Assembly (NCBI RefSeq): GCF_000269965.1
Contig: NC_017219.1
Location: 1,178,001 to 1,242,000, forward strand
DNA: 64,000 bases
Origin: Bifidobacterium longum subsp. infantis ATCC 15697 = JCM 1222 = DSM 20088
GTDB taxonomy: Bacteria; Actinomycetota; Actinomycetes; Actinomycetales; Bifidobacteriaceae
Direction: 5' to 3'
This document shows positions 30,771 through 42,066 of this stretch, piece by piece. The number at the start of each line of letters is the position of its first letter. Within the stretch, counting starts at the first letter, position 1. The position numbers and the translations under genes were made by a program. The notes below the pieces were generated by a model, which was given only the letters and a program-made list of their open reading frames with translations, was not told the origin of the DNA and did no database searches.

Positions 30771-31143
30771 GAACGCTGTTCGCGTATTCAAGATGAGATT
30801 CAGCCTGTTGCTTCATGAGCTTATCGCTCGCTATGATATCGTTCTTCTCCTTTAGTAATTCCCACGGAAAAAAACTGTATTTATGAGACGGTTCGGTATA
30901 TTCCGGAAGTTCAGGTCTTTCAAATTCAGTCAATCCGAATTCTCGTGAATTTGCCTTTTCGGTCTCCGCTGAGACCAAAGTCGCTAAATTCCAGACAACT
31001 TGATCTGCTTCCCACTGAGAATATGCAGCAGATACCTGGAACATCAGTATGCCTGTCATGCAGACATATATCAAGGCAATGACTGATATAGCCTGAACCC
31101 ATCTGTTACTCTTCATGCCATTCAGGCTCATTTTCTCAGTCAT
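30742..31143 (-). CDS. Small membrane protein paired with the amidase-like protein
   Basis: A 133-residue protein with one N-terminal membrane helix (AISVIALIYVCMTGILMFQV) and an acidic extracytoplasmic helical domain. It is coupled to the upstream amidase-like gene: its ATG (31,143) overlaps the last codons (TATGACTGA). The topology suggests a membrane partner, anchor or immunity-like protein for the secreted enzyme. No family recognised. Confidence 0.65.
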   Translation of the reverse strand: MTEKMSLNGMKSNRWVQAISVIALIYVCMTGILMFQVSAAYSQWEADQVVWNLATLVSAETEKANSREFGLTEFERPELPEYTEPSHKYSFFPWELLKEKNDIIASDKLMKQQAESHLEYANSVLNKYNHRNI

Positions 31144-32260
31144 AACGATATTGAAGCCCATACCAGGTCATATTATTTTTTCCTTGTTCATGGGCATGCT
31201 GCAGCGACTCCGTCAACGTGATTTGATGACGATTCTCTGTCTTCTGATCTATGACCGGATTGGCTTTGCCGTCCTTTACGACAACACCCACGACGAACAT
31301 AGCGTGATCGATTTCATTATTTGAGGTCCAATCTACATACAATATGCTGCCTTGCCATGCTTTCCAAACATTATCCAAACTGTCATAACTATGCGAATAA
31401 TGCTTCATGTACGAATAATTGCTATCCGCATTCATCCAAGCACGTGTCGTCAGCTTGTCCGGCAATACAGTAGAGTAATTCCACAGTCTGGTCAGAGTCA
31501 TTCCACCTTCATGAAGAGCCTGCGAGACAAAGTTTGCACAGTTAGAGCCAAAAGACGGATACGCGGAATTCATTTTATGCTCATATCCAGGACTCGTCCA
31601 TTTATTGGCATAATTCATAGCCTTAATATAATTTACTCCGACGGAGTTGTCCCCGAAGGCATATGTCTGAGCCTTGTTGAGTGCTTCACTTTCCAATGCG
31701 CCATTTTCATCCAAAGAAGCAGGTGTTTTGTCTTCGGTCGGCAATTTATCCGATGCGTCGGCATATTCCGGTGGATCTTGTTCATCAATCACTTTGTCGC
31801 TAATAATTGAATACCCTCGCTGCCTTCCCACATGGGCAAACTCCATGATATGCGTAGAAGTCCAACTCTGGTCAAGATGGTCCGTGCGCTTACCATTAAC
31901 ATAAATAACAGTATCCGAGTCTGCGTCCAGACTCACGTTCACGGTCATATCTGTATCAATCAGATACTCTCCGTCATCTGATGATTGAATGCTTCTAATT
32001 GTCGGTACGACTTCAACATTCTTGCTGATAAGACCCTCTTTGGCTTGTTCCTCAGCGGTAAGTGGGATATTCAGTTTGGACCTCGTACGCGGCGAATGAT
32101 ATTCGGCTAATAGTTCTTGTGAATACTGATGAAGCGTCTGCTGGATCTCTTGCATCTCCACATTGTCGCTTCCATACGCATATGCATTCGCAGGAAGCAA
32201 CAAAGTCGGCACTAAAAGAGCAGTCAGCAGAGGAATAATCTTTTTTCTTGCATTTAACAC
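31136..32260 (-). CDS. Secreted protein with amidase_6-type cysteine hydrolase domain
   Basis: A 374-residue protein with a signal peptide (KKIIPLLTALLVPTLLLPANAYA). The C-terminal half matches the putative amidase domain of Bacillus-type secreted proteins: AMNYANKWTSPGYEHKM, then SNCANFVSQALHEGG with the candidate catalytic Cys, and EIDHAMFVVGVV with the His. The N-terminal half is a strand-rich domain of unknown role. A peptidoglycan or peptide amide substrate is plausible. The first codon is GTG (32,260) without a visible Shine-Dalgarno, and an IS30 copy begins only about 30 bases upstream, so the native promoter was probably lost. AT-rich. Confidence 0.75.
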   Translation of the reverse strand: MLNARKKIIPLLTALLVPTLLLPANAYAYGSDNVEMQEIQQTLHQYSQELLAEYHSPRTRSKLNIPLTAEEQAKEGLISKNVEVVPTIRSIQSSDDGEYLIDTDMTVNVSLDADSDTVIYVNGKRTDHLDQSWTSTHIMEFAHVGRQRGYSIISDKVIDEQDPPEYADASDKLPTEDKTPASLDENGALESEALNKAQTYAFGDNSVGVNYIKAMNYANKWTSPGYEHKMNSAYPSFGSNCANFVSQALHEGGMTLTRLWNYSTVLPDKLTTRAWMNADSNYSYMKHYSHSYDSLDNVWKAWQGSILYVDWTSNNEIDHAMFVVGVVVKDGKANPVIDQKTENRHQITLTESLQHAHEQGKNNMTWYGLQYRYD

Positions 32261-32291: not shown

Positions 32292-33283
32292 CTAAATAGA
32301 AGCGCAACACCTGTCTATGGTTGGAAGTGTTCAAGTCCACAACCGAAGAGAAAGTGCTGCGCTCGATATGAAAGCTTATTCCCACCTGTCGGCAGAGGAA
32401 CGGATCCGAATCGACGAATTGCGCAACAGGGACGGGCTCGGCGTGCGTCAGATCGCGCAGGCCCCTGCGCATGTCCTACTCCCCGTTGCTCGCATGGGTG
32501 ATGGACGCGCTCAGGAAGGGGTGGACGCCGGAAAGGATCGAGGGGCGACTGAAGGTCGAATGGCCCGACGACCCGCGCATGCGGATAAGCCACGAGTGCC
32601 TCTACCGGTGGATCTACGCGAAACCGCAGAGGGCGCTGGACCTCAGGCAGTACCTGCCTCGCGGCAAGCGGCACCGCACGCGTTCGAAGGGCAGGAGGTC
32701 GAAGGGGCCGCGCATTCCGATGCGCGTGCCGATCACGGACCGGCCGAAGAAGGTGGACTCGCGCCATGAGTTCGGCCACTTCGAATCCGACACCGTGGTC
32801 GGCGCGTCCCCGTCCAAGCGGTGCATCGACACGCAGGTCGAACGCAAGAGCCGCCGCCTGTTCGCCCGCCTCATCCCCGACAAGGGCGCGCTGGCGACCG
32901 CGCGCGCCGAATACGACATCTACAAGGACATCCCCGCGCCCGCGCGCATCGACCGGACATGGGACAACGGCACGGAATCCTCCTGCCACGTGCTCGTGGA
33001 CGAGGCCCTCGGCATGCTCACCTACTATGCGGACCCCTACTCCTCATACCAGCGCGGCACGAACGAGAACCGCAACGGGCGCATCCGCCGCTACCTGCCC
33101 AAGAGAACCAGCTTCGACGACCTCACGGACGAGGATCTGCAGGCCATCGTCGATGAGATCAACGACACCCCCATGAAGGTCCTGGACTGGGAAACGCCCA
33201 ACGAGGTTTGGTACCGCGAGCTCGGCAAGGTAATGTCGAAGACAAGCCACCCAAAGACGGGTGTTGCACTTATAAATTGAATC
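32292..33283 (+). mobile_element. IS30-type element, internally deleted
   Basis: The left end (TTCTAAATAGAAGCGCAACA then CCTGTC) and right end (GACGGGTGTTGCACTTATAA) are imperfect inverted repeats. The transposase gene between them has lost about 190 bp. It lies directly upstream of the amidase-like gene and next to the IS110 gene. Confidence 0.75.
32368..33280 (+). pseudogene. IS30-family transposase, deleted and frameshifted
   Basis: It starts MKAYSHLSAEERIRIDELRN and continues to VRQIAQ. It then jumps to PLRMSYSPLLAWVMDALRKG in another frame, missing about 60 residues present in the copy at 43.8-44.9 kb. The catalytic region is present in the second frame (EFGHFESDTVVG, TWDNGTESSCH and GTNENRNGRIRRY carrying the D, D and E). 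The protein cannot be made intact. Confidence 0.85.
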
Positions 33284-33334
33284 CGGGGGGCCGGAACGCC
33301 CCGGGAAGTCAACGGCGACGACAGGGAGACGACG

Positions 33335-34600
33335 ATGGAGCAGCCGACCACGATCATCGCCGGGGTGGACACGCACACCGGCATCCACACCCTCGCCCTG
33401 CTCGACATGAACGGCAGGGTCCTTTCCACGAACACCTTCGGAGCCGACCCGGACGGGTACGGGCATCTGATCGCCATGCTCGGCGACCCGGCCCGCTGCG
33501 CCGGGATCGGCGTGGAGGGCACGAACTCGTTCGGCGCGGCGCTGGCCCGGCGGCTCCAGGCCGCCGGTTTCCCCGTGTACGAGGTGCTCAGGCCGAAACG
33601 CGGCGTGCGCCGCAAGGACGGCAAATCCGATCCCATCGACGCGATCGCCGCCGCGCGCAGCGTGCTGGCCGGCGACGGAACGAGCCTGCCGAAAAGCTCG
33701 GACGGGTGGGTCGAGGCGCTGCGCCACCTGAACGCGGAACGATCCCAGCCGGTCACGGCGATGACCACGCCGGCCAACTCCACCGGCGGTCTGCCGGCCG
33801 CCGCGCCCGAACCGATCAGGGAGAAATACAGGGGACTGCGCACCGAGACGCGCATGAACCGTCTGGCCTCATGCCGCCCGTCCGGCGGCCTCGTCGCCCA
33901 CAGCGTGCTCACCGCGCTCAAAGGCGCCGCCAAGGCATGGAGGGCGCTCAAGGAGCAGGCGGACCCGCTCGAGGAACGCATGCGGAGCATCCTCGACACC
34001 AACGCGCGTCCCCTGCTCGACATCTACCGCGCCGGCACCATCACCGCGGCCACGATCGCCATCGTCGCCGGGGACAACCCCGAACTCATCCGCGACGAGG
34101 CCGCGTTCGCCAAACTCTGCGGCGCGTGTCCCATCCCCGCATCCAGCGGCAAGACCAACCGTCACCGGCTCAACCGGGGCGGCAACCGGCAGGGCAACAT
34201 GGCACTGCACCGCATCGCCATCGTCAGGCTCGGATACCACCAGCCGACCCGCGACTACGTGGCGAAGAAAACACGAGAGGGGAAAAGCAAGCTCGAGTTC
34301 ATCCGCTGTCTCAAACGCCATATCGCCCGCGAGGCGTACAAGGCCCTCATCGCCATCCGCAACGGCGGCGCGGGACGGCAGACGCCGCAGGAACGCGGCG
34401 CGCTCCTACGACGCCTGCGCACGAGCCACGGGATCACGCAACAGCAGATCGGCGAGGCGCTGGCCGTGCCCTCCAGCAGGATCAGTGAAATCGAACGCGG
34501 GACCCGCGACCTGCCCGAACTCGAGCAACGCGCCACCCAATGGATCCACTCCATCACCACCCCGACGACACGACACTCCCAACCGCTTGACGATGAATAG
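33335..34600 (+). CDS. IS110-family transposase with C-terminal HTH
   Basis: A 421-residue DEDD recombinase. The N-terminal RuvC-like domain shows GVDTHTGIHTLALLD, GVEGTNSFGAALARR and KSDPIDAIAAARS. The C-terminal transposase_20 domain has GACPIPASSGKTNRHRLNRG with the catalytic Ser. Beyond about residue 355 it carries an XRE-like helix-turn-helix (LRRLRTSHGITQQQIGEALA, then SRISEIERG), an uncommon addition. Only about 50 bases separate it from the IS30 end upstream, so the left non-coding end that holds the bridge RNA in IS110-type elements seems missing. GC-rich, unlike the genes after it. Confidence 0.85.
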   Translation: MEQPTTIIAGVDTHTGIHTLALLDMNGRVLSTNTFGADPDGYGHLIAMLGDPARCAGIGVEGTNSFGAALARRLQAAGFPVYEVLRPKRGVRRKDGKSDPIDAIAAARSVLAGDGTSLPKSSDGWVEALRHLNAERSQPVTAMTTPANSTGGLPAAAPEPIREKYRGLRTETRMNRLASCRPSGGLVAHSVLTALKGAAKAWRALKEQADPLEERMRSILDTNARPLLDIYRAGTITAATIAIVAGDNPELIRDEAAFAKLCGACPIPASSGKTNRHRLNRGGNRQGNMALHRIAIVRLGYHQPTRDYVAKKTREGKSKLEFIRCLKRHIAREAYKALIAIRNGGAGRQTPQERGALLRRLRTSHGITQQQIGEALAVPSSRISEIERGTRDLPELEQRATQWIHSITTPTTRHSQPLDDE

Positions 34601-34694
34601 GAGCATCAAAAAACACAGAAACGTATTAAAAACTCATTATTTTGATTTAAAATCAAATTACTTTTCCTTGCAAATAGCAATTAAAAAAAAATAA

Positions 34695-35093
34695 ATGAAA
34701 AGAGTGAGAATGTTAATTATATTAGCATTGATACTTTTAATATCAAGTTATTACTTATATACGCTATATAATGAATCAAGAAAAGGAAATTTAGAATTAA
34801 ATTATCAAGTAGGGATAAAAACTCGATGGACAATGTCGTCTGAAGAGGTATGGAATTATGTACACAAAAAATATTCATTTGTTTTTCTAATTAGCGGCAT
34901 AATCGTTGCATTGATGGCTGCGATAGTCATAATCGGCGCATTTTTGTCAAAAAGCATAAACAATCTCAATAATATCTATTGGCTAGCAATGTTATTTATT
35001 ACAGTATTGTTATTGCTATTTGTTATAGCAATAGGATTCTGCGCAAACAACGATGCAAAAAGTTATTTTCTTATGAAGGAAGAGAAGCAATGA
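34695..35093 (+). CDS. SdpI-like membrane protein, candidate immunity
   Basis: A 132-residue protein with membrane segments at about 6-24, 62-84 and 95-117. The loop sequence NYQVGIKTRWTMSSEEVWNY has the N-x-x-x-G-x-[RK]-T-x-x-T-x-x-S-x-E-x-W pattern of the SdpI family, whose founder protects Bacillus subtilis from the pore-forming SDP toxin. As the first gene of the AT-rich cluster it is a natural candidate for self-protection against the cluster product. Its stop codon is caught in a 26-bp tandem duplication. The family call is by motif; the immunity role is inference. Confidence 0.7.
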   Translation: MKRVRMLIILALILLISSYYLYTLYNESRKGNLELNYQVGIKTRWTMSSEEVWNYVHKKYSFVFLISGIIVALMAAIVIIGAFLSKSINNLNNIYWLAMLFITVLLLLFVIAIGFCANNDAKSYFLMKEEKQ

Positions 35094-35130
35094 GTAAGGT
35101 AAATGAAGAGAAGCAATGAGTAAGGTAAAT
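35079..35130. repeat. 26-bp tandem duplication across a gene junction
   Basis: 35,079-35,104 and 35,105-35,130 are identical (starting GAAGAGAAGCAATGAGTAAG). The unit contains the stop of the SdpI-like gene, a Shine-Dalgarno-like GAAGAG and the ATG of the next gene. The first ATG (35,090) now reads only nine codons before a TGA; the second (35,116) opens the full gene. Confidence 0.95.
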
Positions 35131-35835
35131 GAAGAGATGACCGAAAATATTAACAATTTATGGTCTGAGTTGATTGAAAACCATGATAAAAAACAGGCTT
35201 TCATGAATCATCCTAACGAATTTTTAAAATCGGAAAAAATAAGCATATATCTAAAGACTGTCAATGGTAGACATTTCGAACTTGGAGAGTTCATCGGAGA
35301 ATCACCGGCAAACGCCCGAATGGCAATATTAGAGTCGATTATCTCAATGATAACCAACACGGTTCCGACTTCCGAAGGTGAAGAACCTGAGAGGACGCCT
35401 TACTGGGGCGTTAACTTCAATGCAATTACAAATTTTAATGTGTGGTTTAACGCAAATGCTGTAGCGAATGCAAACGCAATGAGCAATGCGAATGTGGGCA
35501 CAAACGCAAACGCGGGAATGAACGCAAATGCAAATACTGCCAAGAACGTAAATGTCAGTGGCGAAGGAAATCCGCAAATACAAAGTGAACACAAAAGGGA
35601 CATCAATCTGACATATTCCGATAAGTATCTAAAATCCGAATTACACAAGTATTTTCAAAATCATAATTTAACTACACATCGCGAAAAAGTATTACTAGTA
35701 TACCTTATTGAAAATTCCGGGAACAGAAAGAACATCGAATACTCGTTTCATGGACAGAGGATAAAAATAGATATTGAAATGGAGGGCAATATAGCTTTAA
35801 TAGAAAATGGCGAGTTAATCAAGGAAAGGAAGTAA
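35116..35835 (+). CDS. Candidate RiPP precursor with Asn-x-Asn hexad repeats
   Basis: A 239-residue protein in three parts. Residues 1-95 resemble a nitrile-hydratase-type leader (WSELIENHDKKQAFMNHP, then NEFLKSEKI). Residues 96-148 form an Asn-rich block in which N-x-N recurs every six residues (100/102 to 136/138), with Ala/Val/Gly/Met/Phe between and no charged residue before Lys143. Residues 149-239 form a charged, globular-looking tail. Leader and block lengths match polytheonamide-type proteusin precursors (about 97 and 49 residues), but such a long C-terminal follower is not usual. Neighbours are a radical SAM gene, a methyltransferase and an exporter. The precursor role is inference; a structural repeat protein is the alternative. 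Confidence 0.6.
   Translation: MSKVNEEMTENINNLWSELIENHDKKQAFMNHPNEFLKSEKISIYLKTVNGRHFELGEFIGESPANARMAILESIISMITNTVPTSEGEEPERTPYWGVNFNAITNFNVWFNANAVANANAMSNANVGTNANAGMNANANTAKNVNVSGEGNPQIQSEHKRDINLTYSDKYLKSELHKYFQNHNLTTHREKVLLVYLIENSGNRKNIEYSFHGQRIKIDIEMEGNIALIENGELIKERK
35413..35553 (+). repeat. N-x-N-x-x-x hexad repeat in the precursor gene
   Basis: Codons 100-146. Asn pairs fall at 100/102, 106/108, 112/114, 118/120, 124/126, 130/132 and 136/138 with exact six-residue spacing; 140 and 144/146 then break phase. The DNA is not a simple repeat (AAC and AAT alternate, spacer codons differ), so the periodicity is kept at protein level. Confidence 0.9.
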
Positions 35836-35840
35836 GTTCA

Positions 35841-36948
35841 ATGAGCTGGAATTCGATAATTGAAGATCATTATATGGAAATGCTTTCGAATATCAGAGAG
35901 ACAGCTATCGCTACAACCGACCAGTGTAATATTAAATATGAACATTGTCTGATGATGTCTGGCCCTTCGCGAAAAGAAAAACTGTCATATCTTTTAATGA
36001 AGCGCTTCATTGATTCATTAAGGGCAAAATCAAAGTTAAATACTGTTGTATTTACAGGGAGGCGAGTCAACCCTTTTAGGCGAGGATTTGCTTAGCATCA
36101 TATCCTACTGTTCAAGCATTGGTCTAGGAACACGTTTGGTGACAAACGGCTCGTGGGCGATTAACAACTGTGCTACAGAGGATATGATCCTCTATTTATT
36201 GGAGTCCGGTCTCAATGAACTCAACATATCTACCGATGATTTTCATGCTAAAGAGGTTTCCTTAGATTGCGTTAGGAGGATCTGGAAATGCGCAAAAGGA
36301 CGAGGATTTAGTGCGGTTATTTTGGGTGTATGTAGTGGTCCCGAGAGCAGAGTAACACCTCAGTTTTTAGAGACATTTTTAGGGGAAAAAATTCCTTATA
36401 TATACGACGCAATGGGAAACAAACAAATCCCTGAGCCAAATCAGGACGGAACAGTATACGCAATTTCAAATACTGGCATAGCACCTTTGGGGAGAGGGCA
36501 CCATTTAAAAGATGGCTGGTTTCGAAAAACTAGAAGAGTGGAGCATCCATTTATCGGAAGATGTCCAAACATATATAAACCCTTGACACTAATGGCAGAT
36601 GGAACAATCGGCGCATGTTGTGGCATCAATTGTGAACGGACGTCGATTCTTTCCATTAAAAATATATACAACAACGAAAGCTATTTTTCCGACGGAAAAC
36701 CTTCATATGAACAGCAAATAATTATCTGTGCACTTGATGTCTTAGGCCCAGCATATTTATACACTATTGCAACGGGAGATGCATGTGAACATATCAGAGG
36801 AATAAATATATCGTCGTGCCAGATATGTGAGTTTCTGTTCCGAGATAATTCTCTGACCAATAAATTATTCCGGTCAATAGATCAAATTGAATTTGACGTA
36901 ATAAGTCAACTAGTATCTATTGATATATCTACCCCAATTCTTAACTAG
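35841..36948 (+). pseudogene. Radical SAM/SPASM maturase, two inactivating lesions
   Basis: Read across one frameshift this is a radical SAM enzyme of about 368 residues. The N-terminus has IATTDQCNIKYEHCLMM, where the CxxxCxxC motif should be; the middle Cys is Tyr33 (TAT for TGT at 35,937-35,939). At 36,060 one extra A breaks the frame exactly in the GGE motif: without it the sequence reads VVFTGGESTLLGEDL. The C-terminal part is SPASM-like (GRCPNIYKPLTLMADGTIGACCG, SSCQICEF). Such enzymes install thioether, C-C or D-amino-acid modifications on peptides. With no 4Fe-4S ligand set and a broken frame it should be inactive here. Confidence 0.82.
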
Positions 36949-36957
36949 GGGTTTTGG

Positions 36958-38094
36958 ATGAATACTAGACTATTTTTTAATAGCGAATCTATTGATATTG
37001 ACGATGGATATTTCTTACGCTTGGCATTATCTAATAGTGGATATCTAGATTTGTTGTCGGCTGTCCCTCCCGCGGCTGATGTAATTGGTACAATCAGCTC
37101 TATTTACGAGGAGTTACAAGAGCCTTTAAAGTACATTTGCGATCTGCTTCTTTTTGGAAAAACCGTTTGTATGGAAAAATTGCCTGAAGCTCTTGTTGAG
37201 TCTATATTAAAAATTAGAGAATCTGGGCTCATCGCATTGAGGGGAAATGCCGTTTCGTTAAATAATCTTTATTTACAGTTGGTCGATGGATTATTATATT
37301 TTTCGGAATTGCCTCATGGAAGACAAACTCTATATTATGGCACGGATTCTTACGCATTGGCCTGTCGTTTGGGGACCGCCCCTTCTAGGAATAATGTTCT
37401 CGACTACTGTGCCGGTCCAGGAATTCAAGGATTGCTATCTGCATCGCATGGCGCACACGTAACCGCTGTGGAGGTTAATCCTCTTGCATCGGAGCTCTCC
37501 TTATGCAATGCTAGATTGAATAAGCTAGATAACCTCTTTAATGTAATAAACAAATCGGTTATTGAATCCGAAACGGATTTGAAAAATTTAAGATTTGATT
37601 TTATCTGCGCGAATCCGCCACTTCTTCCAATTCCATTTAATCTTAATTATCCGTTTGTTGGAGATGGCGGCACAGATGGATTAAGCATTTTTCGACAAAT
37701 AATGAATTATGGTATTCCTCATTTGTCGAGAAATGGCAAGATTGTAACTCTTGGACTTTCAGGTGGTAGCGAGGTTGGGCCAGATATTTACTGTCTAGCC
37801 GAGCAACTTCAGATGAAGTATCAGATGAAGTTTATTCTTATCATCCTATCTCGGGTTGAGATTACCCCCAGATCCCTATGGATTCAATATATGGCGGATA
37901 CGATCAATATGTATTCTCTGGGTGAGAATACGGTCTCATGCAATGAAGTCTTTGAATCTTATCAGAATGAGGATATTAGCTTTGTCTACTCATACACACT
38001 CTCCGCTATCAATAATAAATGTTATGGCAGAGATTTTACAGTGATTGAATGTGACGACAAAAGTCAGCCGTTAACTCAATGGTGGATATCATAA
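36958..38094 (+). CDS. NPP-motif SAM-dependent methyltransferase
   Basis: A 378-residue enzyme. The N-terminal 120 residues are of unknown fold. The Rossmann core shows motif I NVLDYCAGPGIQGLLSASHG with acidic loop TAVEVNP, and motif IV FDFICANPPLLPIPF. NPP[Y/F/L] motifs mark methyltransferases acting on planar nitrogens such as amide or adenine N, and PrmC/HemK methylates Gln side chains. In this cluster the likely substrate is the Asn side chains of the adjacent repeat protein. The substrate is inference. The frame is intact; GGGGTTTTGG precedes the ATG. Confidence 0.72.
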   Translation: MNTRLFFNSESIDIDDGYFLRLALSNSGYLDLLSAVPPAADVIGTISSIYEELQEPLKYICDLLLFGKTVCMEKLPEALVESILKIRESGLIALRGNAVSLNNLYLQLVDGLLYFSELPHGRQTLYYGTDSYALACRLGTAPSRNNVLDYCAGPGIQGLLSASHGAHVTAVEVNPLASELSLCNARLNKLDNLFNVINKSVIESETDLKNLRFDFICANPPLLPIPFNLNYPFVGDGGTDGLSIFRQIMNYGIPHLSRNGKIVTLGLSGGSEVGPDIYCLAEQLQMKYQMKFILIILSRVEITPRSLWIQYMADTINMYSLGENTVSCNEVFESYQNEDISFVYSYTLSAINNKCYGRDFTVIECDDKSQPLTQWWIS

Positions 38095-38188
38095 CATAGT
38101 TTTATTTCTTGAATGAGATAACACGAACGTCATATATCTCAGATATTTTCGTGGAATACCGAGTTTACTCTTTGCAAGGTTGATATAT

Positions 38189-39988
38189 ATGATTGCATCA
38201 CCTATAGTATGTGACAAGAAACAGGGATCGCTGCTTGAGTCCTTACAAATATCGGTATGTAAACTTTTTAATATCGGTAAACTAAGGATGTTGATTATTA
38301 TCAGTCTATCACTGGTGCGTGGTCTAATTCCAGGTATTCAGGTATTTCTGATTGGTCTTTTGATTGATGCCGCGGCTAATTCCTATTCATTTCAATATGT
38401 ACTTAACTCCTCTTTCTATCTTGGTGGAACAATTATATCTGCTTATCTTTTTGATAATTTAATTATATATTTAAGTGATTCGATAACAATTGATCTTTCG
38501 AAGGATGTAGATTTTGATATAGTTGATAAACTATGCAATTTAGAGGTACAACAGTTCGAAACAGAAGAAACATATGATCTAATTCAACGAGCTGATAATT
38601 CAACGGGATTACATATTTTTGGCCTATTTGATTCTATACGATCCACTATTCAATCCGGAATAACTATATTCAGTATCACTCTAGTAATCTGGTCATGGAA
38701 TCCGTTTGTTGCAATCATGTTAATAGTTGCACCGGTACCGTCCGCAATTGCTACTCTCAAAATACAGACAATGGCGTACACTATAGATTATAATAGGGCA
38801 TCCGATCGACGAGTTGTATCATACTATAGATCACTATTAATGTCCGATAGCGCACGCAAGGAAATAATACTATTCAAATATGCGGATATTCTTCGTGAAA
38901 GGTACTCTGTTTTACAAAAGGAATTTCAGTTTCAAGATTTAAAAATTGCGAAATATAATTTCACAATAGCCGGATCGCTTGGATTTATTTCCATTATTGC
39001 AATTATTGTTGCAATTGTTTTGGGCGCTCGTTCTACTCTTGAATCCGGAAACGTTGGAGCGCTTGCTGGATACATAAGTGCTTCTACTTCTATAGGCCCT
39101 CTTATGCTCGCCGCGCTTGTTGGCTTCATGGGGCTACATCAACATCTTTTATATATATCAAATTGGGTTGCATTTTTGAAGTTAAATCCTAAGACCCCGA
39201 AATCAGGAGATATTCCCTATAAAGGTTCGGACCCCGCTTCAATTGAATTCCGCAATGTTTCTTTTACTTATCCAGGTACATCATATAAGGTGTTGAATAA
39301 CATTTCTTTCAAACTTGAGGCAGGTAAAACAACTGCTTTGGTTGGTCTTAATGGCGCAGGGAAAACCACCATCATCAAACTTCTACTTAGGTTTTATGAA
39401 CCTACTTCTGGAGCCATTTTTCTCGACGGAAGAGACATTTCCGAGTATTCTCGTGATACACTTTATCAGCATTTTTCTGCGCTCTTCCAAGACTTTGTCA
39501 AATATGATAGGTCATTAGCGGATAATGTCCTTTTTACCTCTTCAAGTGACGACCGTGATGTGGATAGAATTCTAAAAACCTTATCCATGGTAGGTTTAAA
39601 ATATTTAGCTAATCTACTTCCCTATGGACTAGATACTATGCTTGGAAGGCGGTTTGAAAATGGGCAACAGTTGTCCATCGGACAATGGCAACGGCTTGCC
39701 ATGGCGCGCGCATTATATAAGTCACCCTCACTTCTAATTCTTGATGAACCAACTGCGTCGGTTGATGCAATATCCGAGAATTCAATTTTTGATGCAATGT
39801 CTCAATTGAGTCGGAACATGACTACAGTAATTGTCGCTCACAGGTTCACAACCATTGCACATTCGGATAAAATCATTGTTATTAAGGATGGCACTGTTCA
39901 TGCGATTGGAAGCCACACAGAGTTACTTGAACAATCGGAATTTTACCGAAAAATATTTTATGCACAGGTTCACTACCACGATTACTGA
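38189..39988 (+). CDS. ABC exporter, fused membrane and ATPase domains
   Basis: A 599-residue half-exporter. It has six membrane helices (about residues 40-320) and an ATPase domain with Walker A ALVGLNGAGKTTIIKLL, signature LSIGQWQRLAMARAL, Walker B LLILDEPTASVD and switch His in VIVAHRFTT. There is no N-terminal C39 peptidase, so any leader cleavage needs another protease. I chose the ATG at 38,189, ten bases after AAGG; a TTG at 38,180 is an alternative. It closes the AT-rich cluster and is the expected export route for the peptide. Confidence 0.85.
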   Translation: MIASPIVCDKKQGSLLESLQISVCKLFNIGKLRMLIIISLSLVRGLIPGIQVFLIGLLIDAAANSYSFQYVLNSSFYLGGTIISAYLFDNLIIYLSDSITIDLSKDVDFDIVDKLCNLEVQQFETEETYDLIQRADNSTGLHIFGLFDSIRSTIQSGITIFSITLVIWSWNPFVAIMLIVAPVPSAIATLKIQTMAYTIDYNRASDRRVVSYYRSLLMSDSARKEIILFKYADILRERYSVLQKEFQFQDLKIAKYNFTIAGSLGFISIIAIIVAIVLGARSTLESGNVGALAGYISASTSIGPLMLAALVGFMGLHQHLLYISNWVAFLKLNPKTPKSGDIPYKGSDPASIEFRNVSFTYPGTSYKVLNNISFKLEAGKTTALVGLNGAGKTTIIKLLLRFYEPTSGAIFLDGRDISEYSRDTLYQHFSALFQDFVKYDRSLADNVLFTSSSDDRDVDRILKTLSMVGLKYLANLLPYGLDTMLGRRFENGQQLSIGQWQRLAMARALYKSPSLLILDEPTASVDAISENSIFDAMSQLSRNMTTVIVAHRFTTIAHSDKIIVIKDGTVHAIGSHTELLEQSEFYRKIFYAQVHYHDY

Positions 39989-40074
39989 ACGGTTTGTTTT
40001 CATTCCTTTTAGAAATGATTCCGAAGAGTCCTTCATATAGTTAATATCGGATATATTATATGAATACGTTGTTT

Positions 40075-40690
40075 TTATGTATTATTGACATATTTTCCTG
40101 ATTCGAATGGCGGTATGCTTCTGAGTAGATAGATGCACTGGTCAGTGGGGATGCGTCCGAGTTCGTCGGGGGGGAGGAGTTTGCGGGCGTTCTTGCCTGT
40201 GCTGCGTGTCCAGCTGCCGTTGAGGCCTTTGGTCTCGCTGGTTTCGATGACGTCGATGGTTTGGTCGCCGAGTCGGTCGCTGATGTATTCGGTGGCGCTG
40301 GGTTCGTTGCCGCCGAGGAAGAGCTGGCTGTCGCAGTTGCCCGCGATGGTCTCCCAATCGTCCTTGTAGAGGCTTTTGCCTTGGCTGACGGTCTGGAGGA
40401 TGATGCCGCAGCTGATGCGCCGGCTTCGTATGGTTGCGATGAGCCTTACGAAGTTGGGGATTTTGCCGATGTTGGCGAATTCGTCGAGCATGCAGTGCCC
40501 GTCGTGGTCGAGCACGCCGTCGGGTTTGGTGTCGGCTTTGCGTACGAGTGTTTCGAAGAGGCATTGGCAGAAGACGCTGGCGATGAAGGAGAATGTGGCG
40601 CTGGTGTCGGGCAGTTCGAGGTAGACGATCCGTTTGCCTTGGTCGAGGGTTTCGAGCCGGATGTCGTCGCCGTCGAGGATGACTTGGTTG
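40075..40690 (-). pseudogene. TraG/VirD4 coupling protein, C-terminal fragment
   Basis: The frame contains QVILDGDDIRLETLDQGK, then SATFSFIASVFCQCLFETLV, DGHCMLDEFANIGKIPNFVR (Walker-B-like LDEFAN) and IILQTVSQGKSLYKDDW, all typical of the C-terminal half of type IV coupling proteins. It ends in a normal stop at 40,075 but has no start: upstream it meets an in-frame TGA at a junction with an integrase fragment. It is a relic of the island conjugation system. Confidence 0.85.
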
Positions 40691-40700
40691 AGGGTGGGGC

Positions 40701-40904
40701 TGCAACATCGTGCTCGTCAGCCGTATGCTCGGACACGTCAACATCGCCACCACCATGCGTTACATCGGACTCGTGCAGGACGAGATGCGCAACGCCGTGG
40801 AATCCACCACCCGCACGGACATGAGATTGACCATGCCCACGAACCAAATCGTCGGCACAAACGGCGTCGCCACGTACTCACTCAGCACCGCAAGAATAGG
40901 ATAG
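40701..40904 (+). pseudogene. Tyrosine recombinase, C-terminal fragment
   Basis: About 67 codons (NIVLVSRMLGHVNIATTMRY, then IGLVQDEMRNAV) carry the LGHxxxxTTxxY end box with the nucleophilic Tyr. Everything upstream is missing. It is fused at the DNA level to the truncated TraG gene in the opposite direction. Confidence 0.82.
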
Positions 40905-40912
40905 ACAAAAAA

Positions 40913-40954
40913 GGTATGCGCCGACATGCGCAAAGAAGCATGTCGGCGCATACC
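40913..40954 (-). terminator. Terminator of the hipBA region
   Basis: A perfect 17-bp stem (GGTATGCGCCGACATGC / GCATGTCGGCGCATACC) with an 8-base loop is followed on the minus strand by TTTTTTGTC. It lies 10 bases beyond the hipA stop. Confidence 0.88.
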
Positions 40955-40964
40955 GGCACCGATA

Positions 40965-41415
40965 TCAGAGGCGTCTGCCCTCGCCGGCGGAAGGCATCAG
41001 GCCGGACAACATGCCCATCGGATCATCAGTCATGGATGCGGAATCATAGGTTGGATCGATTTTCGTGTTCGCACTATCCACCAGCATGAGGATCCGGTCA
41101 CGGATACGAGGCTCCACATCCGAATACGCCTCCTCGATGTTGGAGAGGACCAGACCGGCCATTCTCCTGGCCTGGCCGACGACCCGCTCGGGATCGAGGT
41201 TGTTTTCCGATGCCAGCTTCTCCCAATGACGGGGCGTCACATCCCTGGCACCGGTGACGCCGCCGATGCGCATAGGCAGCTTTCCCGTCAAGAGGAAGGG
41301 AAAGGCTTATGGGCATATCCACACCCTTGGCGTATTCGAGGGGAACATTCCCCTCGGAATCCTCCAGAAACACACCAACAGGAGAATCACCCATCCAGGC
41401 GTGCAGCTCCCTCAC
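40965..41415 (-). pseudogene. hipA: HipA-family kinase toxin, deleted and frameshifted
   Basis: The first 45 codons (MRELHAWMGDSPVGVFLEDS) are the HipA N-terminal domain. Near 41,290 the frame jumps to TGKLPMRIGGVTGARDVTPR and WEKLASENNLDPERVVGQAR, the C-terminal end of the kinase. The catalytic centre (about 250 residues) is gone. Its ATG overlaps the antitoxin stop (ATGA). Confidence 0.78.
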
Positions 41416-41738
41416 CGGGCACTCCCGAGACTGGAAAGCGGCAACGCGGCTATGTCTATTCCCAACACATCAGCTGCGGGGAACACCGCTTCAATCGGGG
41501 CTTCGCCCCGCTGGAGCAAATCATCGGCGAACCGAGGATCGATGCCGGCCCGGGAGGCGAGATCTCCGGCGCTCCAGGAACGGTTCGCCGCCTCTTCCCG
41601 GAAAGCGGCCGCGATATCCGATTCGGTGCGGGCGAAAAGAGTCCGGCGTCCACGCGGCGTTTGGAAACGGCTGAGGTAACGCGCGTACTCCAGTTGCGCC
41701 TTTGTCGGCTCAGGCGGTTTATAGTCCAGATTCGACAT
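41412..41738 (-). CDS. hipB: HipB-like antitoxin
   Basis: A 108-residue protein with a helix-turn-helix near residues 50-95 (WSAGDLASRAGIDPRFADDL). It is coupled to the hipA remnant. It would normally bind HipA and repress the operon; here it is an orphan. The ATG at 41,738 follows GGAGGCCTGCA; a TTG/ATG-type extension to 41,756 is possible. The frame appears intact. Confidence 0.68.
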   Translation of the reverse strand: MSNLDYKPPEPTKAQLEYARYLSRFQTPRGRRTLFARTESDIAAAFREEAANRSWSAGDLASRAGIDPRFADDLLQRGEAPIEAVFPAADVLGIDIAALPLSSLGSAR

Positions 41739-41765
41739 TGCAGGCCTCCTTAACACTTGATTACT

Positions 41766-42066
41766 CTAGCCTTTACAGATAAATCCAGTGATTATCTCGC
41801 CCTTCTCGTACAGGCTCGTATATTCGTCGCCCATGCGGTCGGCGAAGTCCCTTACCCTCATATCGATATCCCATTCGATGGGAGGACATCCGAACGCGAG
41901 TTCCACGTATCGGGGTCCCACCGACATGCCCTGATCGGTTTTCAGATCCTTCCAGAGCGGTCCACGGATTCCTTGCCGCCATCGTAGCGTCGGCCTGCGG
42001 CGTCGAACGGTTCGCCCACCCATGCCTGCAAGTCGGAGAGCACGTCGGCGGCGTTCTCCCGTTCGC
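41766..42066 (-). pseudogene. Broken gene, unrecognised
   Basis: Two protein-like stretches lie in different frames. The upstream one reads ENAADVLSDLQAWVGEPFDA and ends at a TGA near 41,950. The downstream one, GMSVGPRYVELAFGCPPIEW then DIDMRVRDFADRMGDEYTSL, runs to 41,766. Together they look like the C-terminal half of an accessory protein broken by one frameshift. I cannot name the family. Confidence 0.5.

Follow-up and report, generated by a model that had tools for sequence, protein, structure and literature searches.

Does Bifidobacterium longum subsp. infantis ATCC 15697 encode, or has it once encoded, a membrane-pore peptide akin to polytheonamide and aeronamide? The question is raised by five genes, all on the + strand at 34695-39988 of the 64,000-nucleotide stretch analyzed here (positions 1,178,001 to 1,242,000 of NC_017219.1; hereafter, the window), which encode an SdpI-family membrane protein, an Asn-rich precursor, a radical S-adenosylmethionine (SAM) enzyme, a methyltransferase and an ATP-binding cassette (ABC) exporter. 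An open-reading frame (ORF) check bears out the positions, strand and AT-richness given for these genes in an earlier model-generated reading of the sequence (the original prediction), with a GC fraction of 0.30-0.43 across 34.75-40 kb versus 0.63-0.72 in the 2 kb directly upstream. We consider it probable that the genes constitute a decayed locus for a ribosomally synthesized and post-translationally modified peptide (RiPP), whose intact relatives combine EpeE-like alternation of L and D residues with AerE-like N-methylation of Asn to yield what is likely a beta-helical membrane pore. The proposal that the locus makes, or once made, a polytheonamide- or aeronamide-like peptide is supported, the radical SAM gene being broken in the window. 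Judged by sequence comparison, the locus is no plain proteusin, its putative epimerase being EpeE/YydG-like rather than PoyD-like, and it is not special to Bifidobacterium but one member of a family that is present in several bacterial phyla and many of whose gene sets are unbroken.

The precursor (35116..35835, +) is an open frame of 239 aa, rich in Asn and devoid of Cys. Its core (residues 96-148; 35401..35559, +) contains 17 Asn, all of one parity, and the recurrence of N-x-N every six residues, seven times, is confirmed as seven consecutive hexads (residues 100-141; 35413..35538, +) starting at residues 100, 106, 112, 118, 124, 130 and 136. Within the best 50 residues, which hold the 17 Asn, the commonest spacing is lag 6 (14 pairs); lag 2 accounts for 9 pairs and lag 4 for 8, and no pair falls at any odd lag up to 13. 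Fourteen lag-6 pairs are reached in none of 2000 re-scanned whole-protein shuffles and none of 5000 core shuffles, and the even spacing of all 136 Asn pairs of the core is matched in none of 4000. Tandem Repeats Finder reported no repeat within the core DNA, and the Asn codons are mixed (AAT and AAC), with an identical codon in only 5 of the 14 lag-6 pairs; DNA slippage was therefore rejected as the source of the spacing, which appears to be held at the protein level. The core displays the six-residue Asn steps that define the polytheonamide/aeronamide type, in which such a step equals one beta-helix turn (PMC11285071).

Relatives were collected with a profile (A3) built from 14 radical SAM sequences over genome contigs, which gave at least 590 stretches and 299 relatives; the best 80 were kept, and L018-L080 and the viral L081-L087 were excluded from the relatives analyzed (no ORF with four or more N-x-N in 60 residues was found in L018-L031). 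Loci L001-L017 match A3 over most of the enzyme, and 12 of these 17 (L001-L004, L006-L010, L013-L015) carry an ORF with at least two lag-6 Asn pairs near the radical SAM gene; none of L005, L011, L012 and L017 shows Asn hexads, their cores being of other types or unknown. Core statistics were pooled over 17 precursors (alignment A4), whose cores were delimited from alignment columns and not from Asn spacing, leaving out L008 and L015 (no follower), L010 (found late), L102 and L132 (decayed) and near-duplicates of rows in use (L103, L110-L112, L114). The pooled cores hold 693 even versus 47 odd Asn pairs, and observed pairs exceed expectation at lags 6 (99 vs 24.2), 12 (67 vs 21.3) and 18 (43 vs 18.1). 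Two sub-types can be distinguished: one with N-x-N in each hexad (window, L003, L013, L014, L109, L113, L115, L116) and a hydrophobic one with mostly a single Asn per hexad (L001, L002, L004, L006-L009, L101).

The radical SAM/SPASM gene named in the original prediction is present, but it is broken into two overlapping ORFs in different frames. The first piece (35841..36095, +) has Tyr in place of the second Cys of its CxxxCxxC motif, and the second (36046..36948, +) keeps a CC motif and a later conserved Cys. An intact relative, P0019 (368 aa, from a cluster of 330 sequences), is 96% identical to the second piece and possesses all three Cys of CxxxCxxC; among the 24 NCBIfam families that it matches at E <= 1e-5, YydG ranks first and PoyD is absent. 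The CC motif is invariant in 14/14 radical SAM proteins and aligns to C247/C248 of chain 8ai1, of which C248 would be the native catalytic Cys223 of EpeE if the native length is 319. TIGR04517 (rSAM_PoyD) matched in 0/7 genomes, though control genomes gave no match either. Key enzymes of proteusins and epipeptides are unrelated, per a review. The expectation of a polytheonamide-type epimerase holds insofar as the enzyme is nearest to a peptide epimerase, and fails in that this epimerase is of EpeE/YydG and not PoyD kind.

The next gene (36958..38094, +, open) encodes a methyltransferase with an NPP motif that falls within the PoyE/AerE type of Asn-N-methyltransferases, in agreement with its first assignment. 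Such a gene is present in 9 of the 13 loci with Asn pairs among L001-L017, a looser linkage than that of follower and radical SAM gene. If AerE prefers D-Asn, the window methyltransferase would now be without a substrate. B12 radical SAM C-methyltransferase genes occur in 8/29 other loci scanned, and both proteins checked passed the TIGR03975 cut-off.

On either side of the core, the precursor comprises a leader (residues 1-95; 35116..35400, +) and a follower domain (residues 158-239; 35587..35832, +). The core of a proteusin sits at the C-terminus, after the leader; the window precursor differs in that its core is followed by a further domain. An AlphaFold2 model from 14 sequences (mean pLDDT, or predicted local distance difference test, 59) presents a helical leader (81-88 in blocks of residues 11-40) and an alpha/beta follower (block means 65-92), with residues 81-161 at 24-33; a stable L-only fold, which the original prediction had named as refuting, is thus not predicted for them. 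The protein database holds 18 homologues of the window precursor, 90-99% identical over the aligned part (two are short), in clusters reaching up to 171 sequences or 209 contigs. Models of nitrile-hydratase-type leaders match some of 17 family precursors (NF038399 5/17, TIGR04509 3/17, TIGR03793 2/17), the best NF038399 match having an E-value of 4.2e-6 yet 26.7 bits against a cut-off of 40. A leader profile searched against the PDB places nitrile hydratase alpha (E 0.0015) and gallate dioxygenase (E 0.0034) at the top of its list, which also contains LigA/SonA (E 0.006-0.014), SonA being a RiPP precursor, and the NHLP leader 8tb1 (E 0.010). The N-terminus is leader-like, as suggested, but its resemblance to nitrile-hydratase-type leaders consists of weak matches at family level, the window precursor itself matching no leader model.

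The long C-terminal follower proposed earlier is real and corresponds to Pfam DUF5969 (PF19394) in relatives. The DUF5969 model is matched by 11 of 17 family members at E <= 0.5; when ten precursors were scanned singly, three scored above the cut-off of 25 bits (L116 82.5, L003 41.5, L109 32.8), four below, and three gave no match. Neither the window precursor nor P0008 (a cluster of 209 contigs) is matched by the model directly, both being linked to it only through alignment A5, and the window follower scores E 7e-22 with a profile that itself includes it. Precursors lacking a follower were seen at L008:8388-8891, L013:8204-8770 and L015:4512-4931; that of L013 ends with its core, like classical proteusins, and those of L008 and L015 end about 40 residues or less after it.

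Follower and radical SAM gene occur together. A3 at E <= 1e-40 matched 5/213 genomes in the family of the L001 genome, 2/396 in its order (one being the L001 genome again) and 5/296 in the class of the L014 genome; a phylum search at E 1e-15 matched 6/396, five of them partially. The follower profile A5 at E <= 1e-5 matched 6/213 and 5/296 of the same family and class, ten genomes being shared by both profiles, and the eleventh (G590) retains a 76-residue N-terminal radical SAM piece beside an ORF that by eye resembles a transposase. The 11 follower genomes (509 searched with both profiles) thus contain the radical SAM gene whole in 8, split in 2 (G449, G460) and truncated in 1; G001, G004, G415, G424 and G1033 supplied rows of A5 and are not independent, the other six being so. 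Follower homologues devoid of both a radical SAM gene and any remnant of one were not found among these genomes; the original prediction had listed homologues of the Asn-rich protein without radical SAM or methyltransferase neighbors as refuting. Weaker follower matches in G511, G1004, G1064 and G1172 (E 0.004-0.0095) have no Asn hexads and were taken as chance; within ~3 kb of each, no radical SAM, methyltransferase or SdpI match was present.

The first gene (34695..35093, +, open) matches the SdpI model PF13630 (E 1.6e-14; 54.2 bits vs a cut-off of 28.2) and is a candidate immunity gene. An SdpI-like gene also adjoins the precursor in L001, L002, L100-L103, L115 and L132. In L001 (Actinomyces oris) the same five genes stand in identical order, a Klebsiella sp. 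plasmid has the order SdpI, precursor, radical SAM, methyltransferase, and L100 and L103 have their radical SAM-methyltransferase pair separated by some kilobases from the SdpI and precursor genes. A tblastn search of plasmids returned 12 records, the three best being from Rhizobium leguminosarum (L116), Collinsella aerofaciens and the Klebsiella sp. plasmid, whose source was a fruit fly. The locus is unbroken in Rhizobium leguminosarum and also in Bombiscardovia apis, where no precursor was seen. The SdpC toxin model does not match the window precursor; weak matches to hydrophobic cores were obtained in L006 (E 0.00068) and L008 (E 0.034), at best 19.6 bits against a cut-off of 99.2.

Taken together, these elements suggest the following route. 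The precursor consists of a leader, a core with 17 Asn arranged in hexads, and a follower for which a fold is predicted. The epimerase would flip every second residue, namely those of the parity shared by all Asn (100, 102 ... 146 in the window precursor), and the methyltransferase, by homology, would add methyl groups to the Asn amides. With a beta-helix turn taking about six residues, these amides would form hydrogen-bonded ladders, two in the window peptide because each hexad has N-x-N. Leader and follower would be removed around export by the ABC transporter (38180..39988, +, open, with membrane and ATPase domains), and the SdpI-family protein would protect the producer. Since the radical SAM gene is broken, the epimerisation step should fail in the window bacterium.

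Several observations weigh against this account. P0019 reaches 90.4 bits against the YydG cut-off of 300, short of the equivalog threshold, so that epimerisation is not proven, and the first window piece matches ArsS best (1.9e-5), with YydG third (4.1e-4). The window precursor, taken alone, matches no Pfam or NCBIfam model, and the region 33001-42000 contains no B12 radical SAM C-methyltransferase (PoyB/PoyC, TIGR03975). The anticipated co-occurrence of methyltransferase and Asn core is seen in most Asn-core loci, but L007, L013, L015 and L016 have no methyltransferase within the fetched DNA (some contigs being short), and L011 has one but no Asn hexads. Parity is imperfect in L004, L006, L014, L100 and L109, which have odd Asn pairs; L016 has a single lag-6 pair (p 0.09); and L001, L002 and L007 are unremarkable singly against re-scanned shuffles of the entire protein (p 0.13, 0.10 and 0.09), their spacing being significant when shuffled within the core. 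NA-rich low complexity could, moreover, imitate parity in some cores (L013, L113). Those NA dipeptide runs also speak for reading the Asn-rich block as a low-complexity spacer of an unrelated protein with neighbors assembled by chance; we deem this very improbable, given that the radical SAM gene, in full or as a remnant, is present in all 11 follower genomes, five of them profile donors, and that hydrophobic cores with one Asn per hexad (L001, L002, L006-L009) maintain this spacing although they are not of low complexity.

The low YydG score also speaks for a different reaction of the radical SAM enzyme, which might form a cross-link or epimerise only a few residues, as EpeE does, the Asn hexads serving an L-only fold or fibre. 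EpeE yields two D residues (PMC8326336), and in Fibrobacter (L005, L012) the same enzyme family stands beside Pro-rich repeats. A thioether is precluded because the window precursor has no Cys, strict Asn parity and an AerE-type methyltransferase suit alternating D residues, and AlphaFold2 gives no fold for residues 81-161, all of which makes this alternative unlikely. A further possibility, compatible with the decayed RiPP locus that we favor, is that the window copy now persists for immunity only, its SdpI guarding against neighbors' peptide as precursor and enzymes drift. Of the four loci with a broken radical SAM gene (window, L102, L103, L132), all retain an open SdpI-family frame, whereas the precursor is broken in two (L102, L103) and open in the other two; an open SdpI beside broken enzymes is expected if SdpI immunises against a kin toxin, because toxin loss would be tolerated and immunity loss would not. 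The comparison rests on four loci taken as found, a small unplanned sample; three further window frames (precursor, methyltransferase, exporter) remain open, which may simply mean that decay is recent, and the frameshift could be a sequencing error. We regard the chances of this state of affairs as evenly balanced.

Set against known systems, the family resembles polytheonamide and aeronamide (PoyA/AerA, PoyD, PoyE/AerE, PoyB/PoyC) in a core that spans some 50 residues, small and hydrophobic, with Asn six apart, in an AerE-type methyltransferase and in TIGR03975 C-methyltransferases (certain relatives, not the window), with a leader that at family level appears nitrile-hydratase-like; it differs in its EpeE/YydG-like epimerase, internal core, DUF5969-type domain after the core and adjacent SdpI-family gene. 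Epipeptides (EpeX/YydF with EpeE/YydG, Bacillus subtilis) provide the nearest known radical SAM relative, CC motif included, but start from a short prepropeptide, whereas the present family has a large three-part precursor with Asn hexads and, in addition, an Asn-methyltransferase. The SDP toxin system (SdpC/SdpI) shares the SdpI-family neighbor and the faint SdpC resemblance of L006 and L008, and differs in that its toxin model matches no window precursor and relatives fall far under the cut-off.

A literature search, most subscription journals lying outside it, found no paper joining Bifidobacterium with proteusin or mentioning DUF5969, and among the matches listed, in the parts accessible, the combination of a proteusin-like core with an EpeE-like epimerase is undescribed; AerE homologues may have been mined before, in Rhizobium or Phaeobacter for instance. 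On balance we lean towards gramicidin-like D/L beta-helical channels that form a class of their own across several phyla, with EpeE-type epimerases, DUF5969 followers, AerE-type methylation and SdpI immunity, carried by mobile elements in human-associated commensals; two unrelated epimerases would then have led to the polytheonamide architecture. The family unites a polytheonamide-like core and Asn-methyltransferase with an EpeE-like epimerase, gives DUF5969 a likely role as RiPP precursor follower, suggests what SdpI-family neighbors guard against, places candidate channel peptides in Actinomyces and Collinsella, genera that occur in people, and makes a sharp prediction, namely D residues on the Asn parity.

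The locus lies between an IS110-family transposase (33335..34600, +) and a TraG/VirD4 coupling-protein fragment of a conjugative element (40078..40512, -). The latter is 59% identical to a fragment at L102:1241-1720, which adjoins the same kind of locus; because homologous fragments flank both, the two copies were probably carried by related conjugative elements. An Amidase_6 protein is encoded on the - strand in another AT-richer patch upstream (31139-32260). Within the locus, a 26-bp tandem duplication (35079..35137, +; 2.3 copies) covers the stop codon of the SdpI gene and the start of the precursor; it introduces an additional ATG with a short decoy frame ahead of the real start.

No protease gene for leader or follower removal was identified, and the Pfam matches of the exporter do not include a peptidase domain. 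A candidate leader or follower protease is a conserved protein, weakly matching alpha/beta-hydrolases, that is encoded close to the cluster in L003, L006 (13391-14992), L007, L009 and L010. The Fibrobacter precursors with Pro-rich repeats (L005:8164-8952, L012:4092-4988) have no Asn hexads and possibly represent a further core class. On the Klebsiella sp. plasmid, the cluster continues (L115:8148-10350) into an unnamed 562-aa protein and an HlyC-family acyltransferase (PF02794), followed by HlyD and a peptidase-domain ABC transporter; this extension perhaps reflects an acylated product or a second operon.

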